NCBI GenBank assembly: GCA_002082305.1
Contig: LSNO01000119.1
Span: 1 to 64,000 of the forward strand
Length of the DNA: 64,000 bases
Direction of reading: 5' to 3'
Source: SAR324 cluster bacterium SAR324-CTD7B
GTDB taxonomy: Bacteria > SAR324 > NAC60-12
Shown here: positions 1 to 38,586 of the stretch, piece after piece
Position numbering within the stretch: position 1 is the first letter of the stretch
Layout: each line of letters opens with the position of its first letter
The notes under the pieces: model-generated
Database searches by the model: none
Told to the model about the DNA's origin: nothing
The model's input: only the letters and a program-made list of their open reading frames with translations
Made by a program: the position numbers and the translations under genes

Positions 1-62
1 CACAATTCTGCGTCAGCATGTATCGCAAGCATCAATGAGTTCCATGCTGACGCAGAATTGTG
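1..62. repeat. Perfect 20-bp inverted repeat at the window edge
   Basis: Bases 1-20 are the exact reverse complement of bases 43-62, separated by a 22-base loop. The right arm lies within the phosphoesterase gene. A perfect hairpin exactly at the end of the sequence is typical of a fold-back artefact at a contig end, though a genuine repeat cannot be excluded. Confidence 0.9.
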
Positions 63-732
63 TATCATAACCGGTGATCTGACCGATCGAGGTTATCGGA
101 AAGCCTATCATGATTTTCGTGAAATTCTCCAGCAACTCCCAATGCCTTTTCATCCTTTAATCGGCAACCACGATCATCGGAAAATATTTTCTGAGGTTTT
201 TCCGGAAGTGCCACTGGACGAATACGGATTTGTGCAGCAAATGCTGGAAACTCCACTTGGACAATTTCTGCTGCTGGACACAGTTGAGCATGGAAAGCAT
301 TGGGGATCTTATTGTGAAAAACGAGGTGCATGGCTACGGTCTCAGTTGGAAACAGCCGGAAGTAAAGCCGTTTATCTTTTCATGCACCATCCCCCATTTA
401 AGATTGGTATTCCATCTCTGGACAGGATCAGTCTTCGGGAAGACGCACAGCGCATTCAACAAATCGTGAGCAATTTTTCCAACATTAAACATCTCTTTTT
501 TGGACACGTTCACCGACCGGTCAGCGGCAGTTGGCACGGAATTCCTTTCACCACCCTTCGCGGCACCAATCATCAAGTACAGTTGGATCTAAAGGCCGAG
601 GATTATTTACCCATCAGCCATGAGCCTCCGGCTTACTGCGTGATCTTTCTGGAACCGCAACAGACGACCGTGCATTTCCATGACTATCTGGATGATTCCC
701 TGTACATGAAAAGCCCTCGACCTAAGGAATGA
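1..732 (+). CDS. Metallophosphoesterase, cyclic-nucleotide/glycerophosphodiester phosphodiesterase-like (5' partial)
   Basis: The reading frame is already open at base 1, so the N-terminus lies outside the window; the TTG near 58 is not a credible start because it lies inside the metal-binding domain. Calcineurin-like motifs are visible in order: GDLTD, GNHDH, HHPP and GHVHRP, which bind a di-metal centre in CpdA/GpdQ-type phosphodiesterases. The first DxH motif is missing with the N-terminus. A second family member lies at 31373-32218. Substrate (cAMP or glycerophosphodiesters) cannot be told from sequence; a sugar/glycerol-phosphate-type ABC importer nearby (6.5-10.9 kb) makes a glycerophosphodiester plausible, by inference only. 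The first 20 bases may be an assembly or amplification fold-back (see findings), so the first residues should not be trusted. Confidence 0.85.
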   Translation, partial: HNSASACIASINEFHADAELCIITGDLTDRGYRKAYHDFREILQQLPMPFHPLIGNHDHRKIFSEVFPEVPLDEYGFVQQMLETPLGQFLLLDTVEHGKHWGSYCEKRGAWLRSQLETAGSKAVYLFMHHPPFKIGIPSLDRISLREDAQRIQQIVSNFSNIKHLFFGHVHRPVSGSWHGIPFTTLRGTNHQVQLDLKAEDYLPISHEPPAYCVIFLEPQQTTVHFHDYLDDSLYMKSPRPKE

Positions 733-28076: not shown

Positions 28077-28550
28077 ATGCCTGAATCTGCTCCAGTAAAA
28101 ATTCTGATCCGCACACCAAACTGGCTGGGTGATATGGTTATGTCAAGCGGATTTGTCCGCGCTGTTCTTGAAGCCTTTCCAGAATCACAGGTTGATTTAA
28201 TCGTTAAATCCGGATTTGAAAAAATACCGCTTCCACATCGTGGACAAATAATTCCTTTTGATCCAAAAAAAGAAACTGCAGGAAATTTTGGAAAAACTTT
28301 GCGTGCTGAGAATTACGATTATTTTTATGTTCTGCCTCCAAGTTTTTCAGCTGCATGGATGGCACATAAGAGCAAAATACCGCACCGGATCGGCTATTCC
28401 GGAGAATTCAGAAGTTTTCTGCTGAGTTTGGCAAAAAAGCCGGAGGCTACCCCACGCTCACAACACTTACTCAAAGAGTACCTGAATTTATTGGCACCAG
28501 GGCTTTCTACAGAAAAATATCCTCCGCGGCTAGTACATCGTCAATCTTAA
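28077..28550 (+). pseudogene. waaF: 5' half of ADP-heptose:LPS heptosyltransferase II, interrupted by IS630 element
   Basis: Codons up to 28532 encode the N-terminal glycosyltransferase-9 domain (ILIRTPNWLGDMVMSSGFVR, HRIGYSGEFRSFLLS). From 28533 the frame runs into the insertion sequence and stops at TAA 28548-28550, giving a 157-residue truncated product. Removing 1,251 bases (element plus one TA) joins this part in frame with 29784-30347 to give a 339-residue WaaF, close to the usual 350. WaaF adds the second heptose to the LPS inner core. Loss would be expected to give deep-rough LPS unless another copy exists. Confidence 0.9.
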
Positions 28551-28557
28551 TTAGATA

Positions 28558-29181
28558 TTATTTAATCAGAGGATATAACCGTTTCAACTTAATACGGGCA
28601 TCTTCATTTTTGAAGCGCCAAATAATTTTACTTTCCTTTGAGTTTCGTTCTTCAGTCCAAGCATTAACTTCATTTATTAACGCTGTTTTATCTGGAATTC
28701 TTCTATCAAGACATTCGCGACCAAGAATGCTGAACTCAATTTCAGCCATGTTCAACCAACTCCCATGTTTCGGCGTATAATGGAAATCGAGTTTATCCAA
28801 AATTCGTCTTGCTTCTTTGGGGTTGAAAGTCTTGTACAAAGATGCCCCAACGTGTGTATTAAGATTATCCATAACGAGCGTAATTTTTTTTGCTTCAGGG
28901 TAATCTACATCGACCAATTGCTTGATTTGATGTGCCCAGTCTTTAGCTGTACGATTGTCGGTAATATCAACACGGCGCTTGCCCTCAATTGGGTTAAAGA
29001 ACATAAATATATTTGCGGTTCCATTACGTTCATATTCTGAATCATAATATTCGACATGATCTGTATTGGCTGGAATTGGAACTCTGGTTTCTTTTGTTAG
29101 CTGTTTACTGGTTTCATCCATACAAACTAAAGGATTTTGCACTGAATAATCAAGTTGATAGACATTGAGTATATCTTCCAT
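28558..29181 (-). CDS. IS630 transposase, catalytic part (orfB)
   Basis: 207 residues as counted from the first ATG, but the frame is open further upstream to the A8 tract at 29251-29258, reading WCIAPQNHAGFVCAMEDIL. It contains the DDE catalytic residues: Asp in VCMDETSKQ, Asp in VMDNLNTHVG, and Glu in LNMAEIEFS. It is expected to be made as a fusion with orfA through -1 frameshifting; a separate ATG start at 29181 is less likely. Confidence 0.9.
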   Translation of the reverse strand: MEDILNVYQLDYSVQNPLVCMDETSKQLTKETRVPIPANTDHVEYYDSEYERNGTANIFMFFNPIEGKRRVDITDNRTAKDWAHQIKQLVDVDYPEAKKITLVMDNLNTHVGASLYKTFNPKEARRILDKLDFHYTPKHGSWLNMAEIEFSILGRECLDRRIPDKTALINEVNAWTEERNSKESKIIWRFKNEDARIKLKRLYPLIK

Positions 29182-29213
29182 GGCACAAACAAAACCAGCA
29201 TGATTTTGTGGTG

Positions 29214-29699
29214 CTATGCACCATTCTTTGCATTGCCAAGGTTTAATCTCTTTTTTTTAAGTGTTTGCCGTACTGTTTCGTGAGAGATGCTGTCGACATA
29301 ATCTAAAGCGACCATACGCTCTGATAACAAACGTAATGACCAGCGTGCGTGACCTTCGGGGGCTTCAATGCAAGCCAGAGAAATTAATTTTGCTTCCTGT
29401 TCCGGATCAAGTTTTTTAGGATTCGGTCCTTTTTCTCTTTTTACACGTTCAAGAGTAAAGTCCAAGCCTTTTTCAATTAGACGTTGACGTGCTCTTTGCA
29501 CCGTTATCACAGATAGTTCCAGTTTTTTAGCTATTTGTGGATCTGATAAGCAAGGGCCATCATCTCCTTCGTCAGCGTACAAAAAAATTTGAGCACGGTA
29601 TCTTTTCGCTGCTGCAATCTTGCCGGTTTTCACCAGTTTGTTCAGCTTTTCTCTTTCACTTTTACTTAACTTGACGATGTATTTTGTCTTGCGAGCCAT
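29214..29699 (-). CDS. IS630 transposase, DNA-binding part (orfA)
   Basis: 161 residues with a helix-turn-helix (LSDPQIAKKLELSVITVQRARQ) and a second winged-helix region (HARWSLRLLSERM...SHETVRQTLKK). The ATG at 29699 is chosen over 29711 because GGAG lies 6 bases upstream of it. The frame runs through AAAAAAAAG (T8 at 29251-29258 on the plus strand) and ends 13 codons later; a -1 slip there enters the catalytic orfB frame and restores a canonical IS630 sequence. Confidence 0.88.
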   Translation of the reverse strand: MARKTKYIVKLSKSEREKLNKLVKTGKIAAAKRYRAQIFLYADEGDDGPCLSDPQIAKKLELSVITVQRARQRLIEKGLDFTLERVKREKGPNPKKLDPEQEAKLISLACIEAPEGHARWSLRLLSERMVALDYVDSISHETVRQTLKKKRLNLGNAKNGA

Positions 29700-29783
29700 G
29701 TTGTTCTCCATAAAAATTAATCATGGAAAACGAAATGCTATTTTCGCGCCAGATGATATCAATTTAAGAATGACGCTGTACTA

Positions 29784-30347
29784 GAAATAACTCATGAATG
29801 GGTGGAAAAACAACTTGGCTCCTTGGAAATTTCTCTTCCTGAATCTTTTTTTGTCTTCACTCCGGGGGCTATTTTTGGCCCGGCAAAACAGTGGCCTCTA
29901 GAACATTTTCGTACACTTGCTACACTACTGCACAATGTTTTTGGAGATCCAATTCTCATTTTAGGTACCGAAGCGGATGTAAAATCTGGTGCTGAAATTT
30001 CTCTGGGACTAGACTTTGTTCAAAATTATTGTGGACAAACTTCCCTTTCGGAATTGCTCGCAATTTTAGCAAAAGCCAAGTTACTGGTTGGGAATGACTC
30101 TGGAAGCATGCATTTAATGAGCGCATTGCAGCGTCCGCAAATTGCCATTTTTGGCTCAACCTCTCCCGACTGGACTGCACCAATCAATCCTAATGCGACT
30201 GTACTTAGCCGCAATTTATCCTGCTCACCCTGTTTTTCAAGAACTTGTCGTTTTGCTCACTATGACTGCCTGAAACTAATTGAGCCTGAGTTGGTACTTG
30301 AAGAAACACTAAAACTCCTCACTGAAAAAAACCAGACTGAAGCTTAA
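29784..30347 (+). pseudogene. waaF: 3' half of waaF after the IS630 insertion
   Basis: Starts EITHEWVEKQLG at the insertion point and contains the C-terminal glycosyltransferase-9 domain: VFTPGAIFGPAKQWPLEHF, ILILGTEAD and the donor-binding LLVGNDSGSMHLMSAL. It ends with LTEKNQTEA. A GTG at 29802 could start a separate 181-residue polypeptide, but no ribosome site is evident. Together with 28077-28532 it forms the disrupted heptosyltransferase II. Confidence 0.88.
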
Positions 30348-31372: not shown

Positions 31373-32218
31373 ATGCTCATCGCTCAAATCAGTGATCTTC
31401 ATATACCCCGAAAAAACACAAAAACATACGGGATTGCGCCGATGGCAGAGAATTTAGTACTCTGTATCGACCACATAAATCAACACCTGCCAAAACCGCA
31501 CCTGGTTCTGGTCACAGGTGATATTACCAGTACGGGGCAAGCAGAAGAGTTCAATCATGCCGCCAATTTGCTAAACCGTTTCGAGATGCCCTTTTATGTC
31601 ATTCCCGGCAATCACGACGACCGAGACATACTTCGATCAACTTTTGGAAAACAAGCGTGTCCTGTTGAATCTGAGGGGAAAATTGACTATGTAATTGAAG
31701 ATTCAGATCTTCGTTTAATCGCTTTGGACAGCACCTTACCAGGAAGTCCGGGTGGTGAAATTACCGAAGCACAGGCGAGTTGGCTCGATGCCCGATTAAA
31801 CGAAAAACCTACTCAGCCGACAATGATATTTATGCACCACCCGCCGATAAAATGCGATGTCCTTGAAACTGATGTGGACGGTTTTATCGGGAAAGAACTT
31901 TTAGGCTCGGTTATCAGCAAGCATCATCATGTTGAAAAAATAATTTGCGGACATATTCATGTGCCGATCAATACCAGTTGGAACGATACTGTAATCAGCA
32001 CGGCTCCAAGTATGGGGATGCAGTTGGTACTCGATTTGACGCTGAAACGTGAATCCGAGTTTGTTTTGGAAGCACCAGCCTATCACTTACATTATTGGAC
32101 TACTGATAAAAATCTTATCACTCATGCAGTTGTTGTAAAACCAGTTGACGGACCTTATTTATTTGAAGAGCAGGACGTAATCCGCTCTCAACAACCCTAC
32201 ACTTTATTCTATCCATGA
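31373..32218 (+). CDS. Metallophosphoesterase, cyclic-nucleotide phosphodiesterase-like (CpdA/GpdQ family)
   Basis: 281 residues with the full motif set: ISDLHIPR at the N-terminus, GDITSTGQ, GNHDDRD, HHPPIKCDV and GHIHVPINT. These coordinate a di-metal centre that hydrolyses cyclic nucleotides or phosphodiesters. It is a paralogue of the partial gene at the left window edge. Its stop overlaps the start of the serine-protease gene by 4 bases, so it may be coupled to the protease pair; the biological link is unknown. Confidence 0.88.
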   Translation: MLIAQISDLHIPRKNTKTYGIAPMAENLVLCIDHINQHLPKPHLVLVTGDITSTGQAEEFNHAANLLNRFEMPFYVIPGNHDDRDILRSTFGKQACPVESEGKIDYVIEDSDLRLIALDSTLPGSPGGEITEAQASWLDARLNEKPTQPTMIFMHHPPIKCDVLETDVDGFIGKELLGSVISKHHHVEKIICGHIHVPINTSWNDTVISTAPSMGMQLVLDLTLKRESEFVLEAPAYHLHYWTTDKNLITHAVVVKPVDGPYLFEEQDVIRSQQPYTLFYP

Positions 32219-33747
32219 ATGGCTTTCGTTGTGAGTTTTTGTTAAAAGACAATCCACAATTCCGAAAATATTTTTGGATTATTCTTCTTATAGAATGTGT
32301 TTGGTTAGCTTTGGTCTCGTCTGTGCCTGCTTCACAGAATTCAATCGAACAATCCGTATTCCGTATCACAAATTATCAGCAAAGTCCGGACTGGAAATCT
32401 CCATGGAAAATGAAGCCCACGAGCCAAGGACAAGGAAGTGGATTTTTAATTCATGACAATTGGATTTTGACAAATGCACACGTGGTAAGTGATTCTCGAA
32501 TGCTGCTGGTGAATAAAATTTCAAGTCCGGAACCGTTTCTAGCAGACGTGCTGGCAATTGCTCACGACTCAGATTTGGCTTTACTTAAAGTACGTGATCC
32601 CAAGTTTTATCAGGATTTGAAACCGCTGGAGTTAGGTGGTATTCCGGAGTTACGCAGCAGGGTCCGGGCCTATGGGTATCCTGTGGGCGGAAAGGAACTA
32701 TCACGCACCGAAGGTGTTGTCTCACGTATCGAATTTGGAACTTATGTGCATCCTGGTATTGATTCACACCTGCTAATTCAAACAGATTCTGCAATCAATC
32801 CCGGAAACAGCGGCGGACCAGTAACACAATCCGGACAAGCAATCGGAGTTGCTTTTCAATCCAATTTGAGACTAAACGATGTTGGTTATTTTATTCCTGT
32901 TCCACTTATAAATCGTTTTCTGGCAGATATTAAAGATGGACGATATGATGGAGTACCTGAAATTGGAATAGAAACCAGTTCCCTTATCAATCAGCACTAT
33001 CGTCAATATTTGGGTCTTCCAGAAGATACCGGAGGAATACTTGTAGAACGGGTAGTTCCACATTCATCTGCAGACGGTGTTCTTTTAATCGGAGATGTAC
33101 TGACGAAAATTGAGGATTTGCAAATTGACGCAGCAGGAATGGTGCGTTACAGTGAGCAGCAAGTTACATTTTTTATTGAAGCAGAAAACCGACAAATCGG
33201 CGATTCCCTTCAACTGCAGGTTTGGCGAAAAGGCAAATTTATAAACCTGACACTCACACTCAAGGCACCGCCGTTTGGCTCAGAAATGCGAAACAGCTAT
33301 GATGAGCTTCCAGAATACGTTATTTTTGGCGGGCTGGTTTTTATTGCCCTGAATCGAAATTACATCCATTCTCCGGGGAACATAACTCCACCGCTGGCTT
33401 ATGAACACTGGTATCGTGAAATAGAACGACCGCGAACCCGTCACGAACAAGTAGTCATTGTTACACGTGTTCTGCCTTCTCCAGTCAATAGCGGCTACAC
33501 CAATTTACACAATTTTATAGTAAGTAGTCTGAACGGTAAACCAGTCCGATCGCTGGCACATTTGGAGAAGATGCTAAAGAATATGCCTCCAGAAACAACC
33601 AATGTTGTCTTTGGAAGCGAATGGCATAAAATCCCTTTAGTTCTGAATTTTAAAGAAAGTCTTGAGCAGCATAATTCAGTTCTCAAACGTTACGGAATTA
33701 TTGACGGTTCCCGTATTTATGCCGACAAAAACAAGGATTCTCAGTGA
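32215..33747 (+). CDS. Periplasmic trypsin-like serine protease with PDZ-like domain (HtrA/Deg-type)
   Basis: 510 residues. An N-terminal membrane/signal segment (about 19-36) precedes the chymotrypsin-fold domain with a complete triad: H89 (TNAHVVSD), D120 (AHDSDLALL) and S199 (PGNSGGP). A PDZ-like region follows (about 265-350; GGILVERVVPHSSADGVLLIGDVLTKI) and a long C-terminal region resembling a second PDZ (about 415-500). Plant Deg/DEGP2-type proteins share this overall plan. It overlaps both neighbours by 4 bases. It probably acts in the periplasm in protein quality control or processing. Confidence 0.87.
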   Translation: MNGFRCEFLLKDNPQFRKYFWIILLIECVWLALVSSVPASQNSIEQSVFRITNYQQSPDWKSPWKMKPTSQGQGSGFLIHDNWILTNAHVVSDSRMLLVNKISSPEPFLADVLAIAHDSDLALLKVRDPKFYQDLKPLELGGIPELRSRVRAYGYPVGGKELSRTEGVVSRIEFGTYVHPGIDSHLLIQTDSAINPGNSGGPVTQSGQAIGVAFQSNLRLNDVGYFIPVPLINRFLADIKDGRYDGVPEIGIETSSLINQHYRQYLGLPEDTGGILVERVVPHSSADGVLLIGDVLTKIEDLQIDAAGMVRYSEQQVTFFIEAENRQIGDSLQLQVWRKGKFINLTLTLKAPPFGSEMRNSYDELPEYVIFGGLVFIALNRNYIHSPGNITPPLAYEHWYREIERPRTRHEQVVIVTRVLPSPVNSGYTNLHNFIVSSLNGKPVRSLAHLEKMLKNMPPETTNVVFGSEWHKIPLVLNFKESLEQHNSVLKRYGIIDGSRIYADKNKDSQ

Positions 33748-35342
33748 AACAAAATAATTTTCTTTATACCCTTTTGAAATGGCCCATAACTGCTACGGTT
33801 TTTCTTTTTACTTCAGTATTACAGGCTGATCCTCCGGAAATAAAACCATGGTTTCAACAGGCCGTTCTCCTGAAATCTTATCAGCAGTCTTTTGACTGGC
33901 GCACTCCGTGGGAAAAACGCGAAATCCGGACACAATCCGGAATGGCCCTGGTTGTACGCCTACCCGTTTCTGTGAGAATTTCAGTATCTGAAAATGGAAA
34001 CAACAATAACCTGTACCTGCTGACAACAGCAGAAATTGTTTCCGATGCAACCCTGATTGAGGTGACACGTAAGGACATTCGCAGCCCCTTTCAAGCCAAG
34101 CTTGTGCTGATGGACTATGCTGCAAATTTGGCTTTACTTCAAATCAATAATTCAAAATTTTGGCGGAACCTAAGACCTGTGAAATGGACTCCTGTAAAAT
34201 CATCTACTGATCATGAGGCAAAAGATATTTATTCCCTGAAAATAAAATCTCAAGATGAGTGGACAATGGAGTCCGGAACAATAGACAGAATGGCAGTGGG
34301 ACACCGGGAAGTAAGCAATGCCTGGTTTCCTCTTTTAAGGCTGAACGGAATTTCCCAAAGCGGTCAGGGATACCCGCTTCTGCAGGATAATGAAACTGCA
34401 GGAATGATCCTGGATGCAGGTACTGGAGAAGCTAAGGCAATGCCTGCTGCAATGCTGCTTGAGTTTTTGAAGCACGCAGGCAGTAATCCTTACCGGAGCT
34501 TAGCACATCGTGGTTTTATATGGAGCAGATTACCGCAAAGCAGTACTTACAATCATTTTCAAATTCCTCCGGAAAAACCCGGAATCTGGATCAGCAGGGT
34601 TTTGCCTTACGGCACAGGTTCTGATGTTTTGATGCAAGGTGATTATTTGACCAAACTGGGAAAATGGACGCTTTCACACGATGGTAAAGTTGAGCATCCG
34701 GATTGGGGTATTTCCTTGTTTGATTTGCTTTTTTTAGCTCATTTGAAAGTGGGAGATTCAGTAAAACTGGAAGTAATCCGTGAGGGTAAGCCTGTTGTTT
34801 TGCAAACAAAAGTTTCTGCATACGAAGAGAATAGTCGATCAGTTCCCTTAAAAATTGTTGGAACAGCTCCGCGATATGTTATAGAGGGTGGTTTTTTATT
34901 TCAGGAATTGACCTTGAATTACCTCAGAATCTGGGGTGCAAATTGGCAAACACGTGCTCCTATGCGGCTGAGGTTGTTTTTGGAGCAAAACAAAGCTGTA
35001 TCGATTTACGAAAATAATAAAACTGATATATCTTCGACCGGAACAAAAATATCCTCCGAACATCCTCCCCGGATTGTTTTAGTGTCACAAGTTATTCCTG
35101 ACCCGCTGAACATCGGTTACCAAAAACTTTCTAATGCAGTGGTTTTGCAGGTAAACGGCAAGCAAATACGCCGCCTGGAAGATGTTAGCACAGCTTTTTT
35201 AAGTCCAATAAATAATTTTCATAGAATTGATTTCCTTCCAGGTTCAGAGCGTTTGAGCGTCATTTTGCCAGTTGCTGAGCTTGCTGATGCCAACCAGCGA
35301 ATTAAAAATAATTTCCGTATTCCAAAACTTCAATCGCTCTAA
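33744..35342 (+). CDS. Inactive paralogue of the upstream HtrA-type protease (pseudoprotease)
   Basis: 532 residues with a signal peptide (to about VLQA, 28). Its sequence follows the upstream protease: QSFDWRTPWE matches QSPDWKSPWK, and the PDZ part PGIWISRVLPYGTGSDVLMQGDYLTKL matches in order. The catalytic His is replaced by E97 (TTAEIVSD) and the Asp by N128 (YAANLALL); the Ser region reads SQSGQGYP with an insertion. It therefore should not cleave peptides. The frame is intact over its full length, so it is probably maintained as a binding or regulatory partner of the active protease. Confidence 0.8.
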   Translation: MKQNNFLYTLLKWPITATVFLFTSVLQADPPEIKPWFQQAVLLKSYQQSFDWRTPWEKREIRTQSGMALVVRLPVSVRISVSENGNNNNLYLLTTAEIVSDATLIEVTRKDIRSPFQAKLVLMDYAANLALLQINNSKFWRNLRPVKWTPVKSSTDHEAKDIYSLKIKSQDEWTMESGTIDRMAVGHREVSNAWFPLLRLNGISQSGQGYPLLQDNETAGMILDAGTGEAKAMPAAMLLEFLKHAGSNPYRSLAHRGFIWSRLPQSSTYNHFQIPPEKPGIWISRVLPYGTGSDVLMQGDYLTKLGKWTLSHDGKVEHPDWGISLFDLLFLAHLKVGDSVKLEVIREGKPVVLQTKVSAYEENSRSVPLKIVGTAPRYVIEGGFLFQELTLNYLRIWGANWQTRAPMRLRLFLEQNKAVSIYENNKTDISSTGTKISSEHPPRIVLVSQVIPDPLNIGYQKLSNAVVLQVNGKQIRRLEDVSTAFLSPINNFHRIDFLPGSERLSVILPVAELADANQRIKNNFRIPKLQSL

Positions 35343-37077: not shown

Positions 37078-38586
37078 TTGGAAGAAAACTTATTTGAAAT
37101 AATTAAAGACTTCTCTAGAGAGAAGGGTTTGGACCATGAAGTTGTGATAAAACTGGTAGAAGAGTCGCTTATTCAGGCTGCTCAGCGCAAACTGCCTTAT
37201 AGAGAAATTGAGGGACATATCGACGAAGATACCGGAAAAATAAACTTATTCCATTTTAAGGAGGTTGTTGAACTTGTTGAAGATCCTCACAATGAAATTT
37301 CTGTCGATGAAGTCTTTGAAATAGACCCTGATGCAGGACTTGGAGATGAGGTTGAGTATGAAATTAGTGATCGCGAGTTTCAGAGAATTGCTCATTCAAC
37401 ACGACCCATTATTTTTGGCAGTTTAAAGGAAGCAGAACGACAAATGGTTGTTTCCATCTTTACAGACAAAGTAGGAGATGTTTTAACCGGAACTGTCTTG
37501 CGGGTCGAACCAAACGGACGTGTTGCTTTCAGTTTTCAAAATAATGTCGAAGCCTATTTGTTCCGGAGAGAGCAAATATATGGTGAAAATTTTTCCTTTG
37601 GAGACCATGTCAGAGTGTTGCTGTTGGACGTAAATGATAATCCGCATAAAGATTCTCAACTTACAATTTCCAGGACACATCCTGGTCTACTGATCAAGCT
37701 GTTTGAGATGGAGGTCCCGGAAATTTATGATGGAATCGTCAAAATTGTCAATGCTTCAAGAGAACCTGGCCGCAGAGCAAAAATTTCAGTTTATTCTACA
37801 GATGATGATGTCGACCCAGTCGGCTCATGTGTTGGCATGCGCGGAAGTCGAGTGCAGGCTATTGTAAATGACTTAAATGGAGAAAAAATAGATATAGTCC
37901 GCTGGAGCGAAGACATTGACCAATATACCTGCAATGCATTGGCACCGGCCGAAATTGACAGTCTTGAAATTGACGAAGACGCACAACAAATTGATGTTGT
38001 TGTTGCACCAAGTCAATTATCACTTGCAATTGGACACAAAGGTCAAAATGTGCGTCTGGCTTCAAAATTAATCGGTTACAAAATCAATATTGTTGCCACT
38101 GAGGAAGATGAGCTTTCCATAGATGAGCAACTGGAAAAAGAATTTGCAAAAACTAAAGAAAATGGTCTCAAAAGTATAGACAAATCCGAGGATCTGCCTG
38201 AAAGTGACACTGACGAAGCTAAAGAAACTGCAACTGCACTGGAAAATCAAGATGATAACCAAGATTCTTCCCCCTTAACTGCTGAAGAATCTGAAACTAC
38301 AGAAGACAAAGATAAAGTTGAAGCTGAAGAGACTGATAATACAGAAGATACTAAAAATAATTCTAAAGATGCTCCTGCTGAGAGTAAAACTGAAGTTGAA
38401 TCTAAAGCCGAAACAAAGACTAAGACTAAAGCTGAAACAAAAACTAAGACTAAAGCTGAAACAAAGACTAAGACTAAAGCTGAAACAAAGACTAAGACTA
38501 AAGCTGAAACAAAGACTAAGACTAAAGCTGAAACAAAGACTAAGACTAAAGCTGGAACAAAGACTAAGACTAAAGCTAAATCTTAA
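37078..38586 (+). CDS. nusA: Transcription termination/antitermination factor NusA with repetitive C-terminal tail
   Basis: 502 residues. The TTG at 37078 is the start, supported by AAAGGTG 5-10 bases before it and by the canonical N-terminus. Domains: NusA N-terminal (about 1-125), S1 (about 134-200), KH1 and KH2 (about 230-345; VGMRGSRVQAIVNDLNGEKID and LSLAIGHKGQNVRLASKL). After about 360 comes an acidic low-complexity segment, then seven copies of an 8-residue AETKTKTK unit (about 444-499). The E. coli-type acidic AR repeats are absent. The basic tail may contact RNA or polymerase; this is inference. Confidence 0.9.
   Translation: MEENLFEIIKDFSREKGLDHEVVIKLVEESLIQAAQRKLPYREIEGHIDEDTGKINLFHFKEVVELVEDPHNEISVDEVFEIDPDAGLGDEVEYEISDREFQRIAHSTRPIIFGSLKEAERQMVVSIFTDKVGDVLTGTVLRVEPNGRVAFSFQNNVEAYLFRREQIYGENFSFGDHVRVLLLDVNDNPHKDSQLTISRTHPGLLIKLFEMEVPEIYDGIVKIVNASREPGRRAKISVYSTDDDVDPVGSCVGMRGSRVQAIVNDLNGEKIDIVRWSEDIDQYTCNALAPAEIDSLEIDEDAQQIDVVVAPSQLSLAIGHKGQNVRLASKLIGYKINIVATEEDELSIDEQLEKEFAKTKENGLKSIDKSEDLPESDTDEAKETATALENQDDNQDSSPLTAEESETTEDKDKVEAEETDNTEDTKNNSKDAPAESKTEVESKAETKTKTKAETKTKTKAETKTKTKAETKTKTKAETKTKTKAETKTKTKAGTKTKTKAKS
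38407..38574 (+). repeat. Seven tandem 24-base repeats in the nusA 3' end
   Basis: Seven units of GCTGAAACAAAGACTAAGAC-type sequence (24 bases each), in frame and nearly identical; unit 7 has GGA for GAA. They encode AETKTKTK. Near-identity at synonymous positions indicates recent expansion, for example by replication slippage. Confidence 0.92.

Follow-up and report, generated by a model that had tools for sequence, protein, structure and literature searches.

Why would a bacterium keep, immediately behind the gene for an HtrA-type serine protease, a second full-length copy from which the catalytic residues have gone? Work on HtrA proteases has generally treated them as homo-oligomers whose own PDZ domains provide the regulation. 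The question is raised by a stretch of 64,000 nucleotides from the SAR324 cluster bacterium SAR324-CTD7B (contig LSNO01000119.1; the whole stretch is hereafter the window), in which, at positions 31373-35342, genes for a phosphodiesterase, an active protease (ProtA) and its dead paralogue (ProtB) follow one another on the + strand with a 4-base overlap at each junction, ProtA starting from the ATG within ATGA and ProtB from the GTG within GTGA. An earlier description, made without database searches (the sequence-only reading), had reported this arrangement, and every coordinate and overlap checked out, as did the residues it had named, which were exact: H89-D120-S199 in ProtA, and E97 and N128 in ProtB. 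The features are listed below, A and B denoting the families of ProtA and ProtB.

31373..32218, + strand: metallophosphoesterase, class III cyclic-nucleotide phosphodiesterase-like; outside the conserved unit
32215..33747, + strand: ProtA, active HtrA-type serine protease, 510 aa; signal/anchor, Trypsin_2, PDZ and PDZ_3
32401..32406, + strand: ProtA N-terminal Pro63-Trp64 motif, common to A, B and stand-alone enzymes
32479..32481, + strand: ProtA catalytic His89 (sequence and alignment)
32572..32574, + strand: ProtA catalytic Asp120 (sequence and alignment)
32809..32811, + strand: ProtA catalytic Ser199, in GNSGGP (sequence and alignment)
33292..33699, + strand: ProtA PDZ_3 domain (Pfam PF17815, E 2.5e-28)
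33744..33747, + strand: GTGA overlap of the ProtA stop and ProtB start, 4 bases
33744..35342, + strand: ProtB, dead full-length paralogue, 532 aa, GTG start; signal peptide, degenerate trypsin domain, PDZ and PDZ_3
33906..33911, + strand: ProtB N-terminal Pro55-Trp56 motif, invariant in B
34032..34034, + strand: ProtB Glu97 in place of His (sequence and alignment)
34125..34127, + strand: ProtB Asn128 in place of Asp; Asn in 56/74 B copies
34365..34367, + strand: ProtB Gln208 in place of Ser; Ser in 0/74 B copies
34842..35336, + strand: ProtB PDZ_3 domain (Pfam PF17815, E 9.9e-24)
35109..35120, + strand: N-I-G-Y motif in the ProtB PDZ_3 domain, retained by most B copies and every stand-alone enzyme, lost from A of other phyla

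Both proteins are assigned from their sequences to the PDZ_3 (Deg2/Deg9-type) branch of HtrA. The trypsin-like domain of ProtA (PF13365) scores 74.5 bits against a cut-off of 27.6, and its C-terminal PDZ domains match PF13180 and PF17815; the latter, PDZ_3, reaches 99.1 bits in ProtA and 84.2 bits in ProtB against a curated cut-off of 22.8. Plant Deg2 and Deg9 are the nearest solved structures of ProtA (1e-68) and of ProtB, and the B-family profile covers Deg9/Deg2 end to end (E = 3e-68), which bears out the description of ProtB as a full-length paralogue. As both proteins carry a hydrophobic N-terminal stretch of the signal-peptide or anchor kind, both are probably exported and periplasmic. 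Structure prediction from three-sequence alignments gave a pLDDT of 34 for A and 27 for B, too low for either model to be used.

Loss of the active site in ProtB extends to its third residue. The segment SQSGQGYPL aligns with NPGNSGGPV of ProtA and places Gln208 at the position of the serine; since this adds to Glu97 and Asn128, no triad residue is left, and where an active HtrA/Deg protease has His-Asp-Ser, ProtB has E/N/Q. A different intact triad, which the sequence-only reading had named as a refuting finding, was sought at the aligned positions of ProtB and none was found; on the alignments, the idea that ProtB is active through a triad that has moved was rejected.

How widely, then, is such a pair kept? 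Among 52 genomes of the SAR324 phylum, all those positive for A and B fall within one order of 41 genomes, of which 33 carry A and 33 carry B, the latter at strong scores. Genomes have both genes or neither, except for the fragmented assemblies G006 and G039, and genus g2 is without either, including in genomes that are 93-99% complete. The triad is present in every SAR324 A with readable positions, neither His nor Ser is present in any B, and the 4-base overlap recurs in about 21 of the 29 readable pairs. The gene order in the window's family is dnaA-waaF-bacA-A-B-ispA-rimP-nusA-infB; in a second SAR324 family the pair sits in a different gene context, and the pair therefore outlasts its neighbourhood. 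Two draft genomes contain in-frame stops, a TGA in ProtA of G012:C101 and a TAG in ProtB of G039:C91, which could be assembly errors or decay. In the window itself, the waaF-like heptosyltransferase gene, a single unbroken frame in several relatives, is cut into 28077-28550 and 29802-30347 by an IS630-like element (28558-29711, - strand, with HTH_32/HTH_29 and DDE_3 transposase ORFs), and NusA (37078-38586, + strand) is prolonged at its C-terminus by a long segment of tandem KTKTKAET-like repeats.

The pair is not confined to SAR324. A search for PDZ_3 in 383 genomes, and then in the phyla of G184, G239, G267 and G306, identified pair-type genomes (two PDZ_3 proteins, nearly all adjacent) in about 56 of 241, 1 of 2, 26 of 58 and 2 of 40 cases, respectively, counts that were taken by hand from tables, with part of the pairs read residue by residue. 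A-then-B pairs thus occur in SAR324 and four further phyla, five in all. The phylum of G184 apparently includes Akkermansia (Verrucomicrobiota), and one of its genomes, G402, has a secretin above the cut-off of the Amuc_1098 family, which points that way when taken with its size and G+C content. Outside SAR324, all 47 pairs read have A first and B second on one strand; the two genes overlap or nearly touch in most pairs, and 21 of the 47 have a possible -4 start for B. No conserved neighbours were found outside SAR324 besides A and B themselves, nor any A-B fusion among the loci read. Where lone hits to A or B outside SAR324 were checked, they proved to be contig edges or of the stand-alone type. 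The only genome seen with the genes unlinked is G594, which keeps both, on different contigs (L192, L193) and not near a contig end. In family f250 of the phylum of G184 (L187-L191), stand-alone PDZ_3 proteases with long frames, divergent PDZ_3 domains and no B form a clade of their own with full support.

In alignments spanning SAR324 and the other phyla, the triad of H, D and S is invariant in 72/72 A copies. Among 74 B copies, Ser occurs in none and His in one, the Asp position is mostly Asn, and the Ser position is often occupied by a bulky residue (W, F, Y, Q, H). Stand-alone PDZ_3 relatives (n=27) retain His and Ser in 27/27 and Asp in 26/27. Conservation of the pair and of its inactive site in relatives, which the sequence-only reading had put forward as a check, is therefore seen well beyond the window's own lineage, and retention in SAR324 and four other phyla makes the A/B pair more than chance.

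In the full tree, a branch with 100% support separates all B from the rest, and paired A copies lie apart from the stand-alone enzymes, bar one long-branched row. A tree of the PDZ columns only, without the catalytic domain, groups the B copies in one clade (99%) and the A copies in another (90%), and a tree of the protease columns minus the catalytic neighbourhoods again has one B clade, the longest B rows being excluded; all are to be read with a quick method and long B branches, longer than those of A, in mind. Of 66 branches, 42 are common to the A and B trees, deep groups among them, and A-B distances are correlated far beyond permutations (r = 0.965 in SAR324, 0.855 elsewhere). Beyond background, the A-B rate correlation is 0.57, only slightly above the 0.41 of a control gene pair. 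The simplest reading of these trees is a single duplication with a single loss of catalysis, after which the two genes would have been inherited or transferred together. The comparison of dN/dS that the sequence-only reading had called for gives about 0.1-0.2 for B in most cases, close to A, with one very close pair at 0.8-0.9 on few changes; judged by its substitutions, B is under purifying selection. Frame decay of B in relatives, which would have counted against a maintained pair, was not what was found: the frame is open in nearly all of them. A protease and pseudoprotease maintained in tandem, as first proposed, is what the relatives display.

The two paralogues have diverged in different places. 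The trypsin domain is the best-conserved part of A and is far less conserved in B, while PDZ_3 is equally conserved across A and B, that of B being on par with the stand-alone enzymes. The N-terminal Pro-Trp is found in nearly all copies of A, B and the stand-alone groups. All 27 stand-alone enzymes carry an N-x-G-Y motif in PDZ_3, as do 65/74 B copies, and none of the 48 A from other phyla has it at that site, the three matches scored there automatically falling in another part of the segment. As the A of the window's SAR324 family retains the motif, the window does not itself show the complementary loss. Beyond that family, each paralogue has lost a feature that its twin kept, A having dropped N-x-G-Y and B the triad, as expected of, and fitting, two subunits that share one job. 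Hydrophobic residues are common at the B C-terminus in the window's SAR324 family and not in other phyla, and the idea that this terminus serves as a PDZ ligand for A was rejected.

Given a conserved pair, a single B clade, mirrored trees, purifying selection and complementary losses, we consider it the best explanation, at a probability of about 0.6, that ProtB is an ancient, maintained pseudoprotease that serves as a non-catalytic periplasmic partner of ProtA, most likely in a mixed assembly. ProtA would do the cutting. ProtB, unable to cut, would keep the HtrA shell, the N-terminal PW segment and the PDZ/PDZ_3 domains, and the two might form mixed trimers, or stacked trimers of A and of B, of the Deg2/Deg9 type. 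Within these, B may control assembly, or activate A and supply PDZ docking, in a manner comparable to MamO for MamE. We infer physical contact between A and B, and activation rather than inhibition, activation being rather more likely. In favour of a partnership, neither gene is found alone in SAR324, fragmented assemblies aside, and MamE/MamO, CspB/CspC and the Deg5/Deg8 hetero-oligomer offer precedents; against it stand the unlinked genes of G594, a rate correlation hardly higher than that of the control pair, the N-x-G-Y motif retained by A of the window's family, and the dependence of MamO's activation of MamE on a transporter domain that B does not have.

A ProtB that worked alone in the periplasm, binding peptides or serving as a chaperone, and was only co-expressed with ProtA since both serve envelope quality control, would also account for a PDZ_3 domain conserved like that of the stand-alone enzymes beside a poorly conserved trypsin domain, and G594 indicates that adjacency is dispensable. 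However, B has never been found clearly without A, the A and B trees match, and order and tight spacing are kept across phyla; this solitary role is, on balance, rather unlikely. A further possibility casts ProtB as inhibitor, decoy or substrate of ProtA, holding it off until stress: as the Ser position of B is often bulky, a filled pocket beside intact PDZ domains could set B in competition for the partners or substrates of A. Nothing specifically favours inhibition, however, and the bacterial pairs described, MamE/MamO and CspB/CspC, are activating, so that we regard an inhibitory ProtB as improbable.

The sequence-only reading had also counted the phosphodiesterase as part of the unit, and the 4-base overlaps on either side of ProtA in the window would suit a single module tying cyclic-nucleotide turnover to proteolysis. 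This part of the proposal did not survive comparison. In the nearest relative (L036, G004), whose A and B are 96-97% identical, a 563-bp internal deletion has left only the ends of the phosphodiesterase gene, and in other SAR324 relatives the gene is absent here and bacA directly precedes ProtA. Being largely deleted in the one and absent from this position in the others, the phosphodiesterase lies outside the system; the three-gene coupling is local, the conserved part is the A-B pair only, and a three-gene module is very improbable indeed. The deleted copy of L036 lies between bacA and ProtA at about 10.7-11.1 kb (- strand), that of the window being intact, and a second calcineurin-like phosphoesterase at window positions 1-729 (+ strand) distantly resembles the one at 31373..32218. 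That ProtB is a decaying, functionless duplicate, as its lost triad and longer branches might suggest, can hardly be squared with a frame open in nearly all relatives over great divergence, a dN/dS of about 0.1-0.2 in most comparisons and a single ancient origin.

A dead twin inherited with its active protease in five phyla is thus very likely a working partner and not a broken gene. More tentatively, and at somewhat under an even chance, a single ancient duplication may have given rise to an obligate active/dead HtrA pair that, in SAR324, Verrucomicrobiota (Akkermansia) and no fewer than three other phyla, assembles into a hetero-oligomeric periplasmic protease. One subunit would then catalyse and the other provide PDZ_3-based assembly or docking, which would make this a widespread kind of bacterial HtrA protease, two-subunit by design. 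If this is true, the dedicated dead subunit inherited in five phyla would imply an ancient transfer of regulation to a second subunit. As the pair makes up the only two Trypsin_2 matches found in G321, one genome of the Akkermansia-like genus, the question is open to test in culturable, non-pathogenic gut bacteria.

The sequence-only reading had known of no described system with this exact arrangement, which appears to hold for the PDZ_3 pair itself but not for comparable systems, namely MamE/MamO, CspB/CspC and Deg7. Open-licence literature on HtrA of Akkermansia and Verrucomicrobia, and on pseudoprotease operons, yielded no description of the A/B pair; active proteases paired with dead ones are known already, whilst the PDZ_3 pair appears undescribed in that literature, as do its single origin and its occurrence in five phyla. 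In domain order and as best-matching structures (PDB 4fln, 5il9; A 1e-68, B family 3e-68), plant Deg2 and Deg9 come closest; they are, however, single active proteins, whereas here active and dead paralogues stand in tandem. In magnetotactic bacteria, one cluster encodes the active HtrA-type MamE and its inactive relative MamO, which is required for MamE activity and needs its transporter domain for this activation (PMC4794232). MamO is magnetosome-specific and has a TauE transporter domain where ProtB has PDZ and PDZ_3, and ProtA scores 58.7 bits against the MamE family NF040960, for which the cut-off is 800. The pseudoprotease CspC of Clostridioides difficile activates the related active protease CspB (PMC4619724); these are subtilisin-family proteins of spore germination and analogous only. 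Arabidopsis Deg5 and Deg8 form hetero-oligomers (PMC4877387) and are encoded by separate genes, Deg5 having a catalytic triad and no PDZ domain. In plant Deg7, an active protease unit is followed by an inactive one, each with PDZ domains, and the inactive half mediates trimerisation (PMC3473262), an active-then-inactive order that matches A-B in 47/47 loci outside SAR324. Deg7 is a single fused eukaryotic chain of two protease and four PDZ domains, whereas A and B are separate genes, and the likeness is one of layout.
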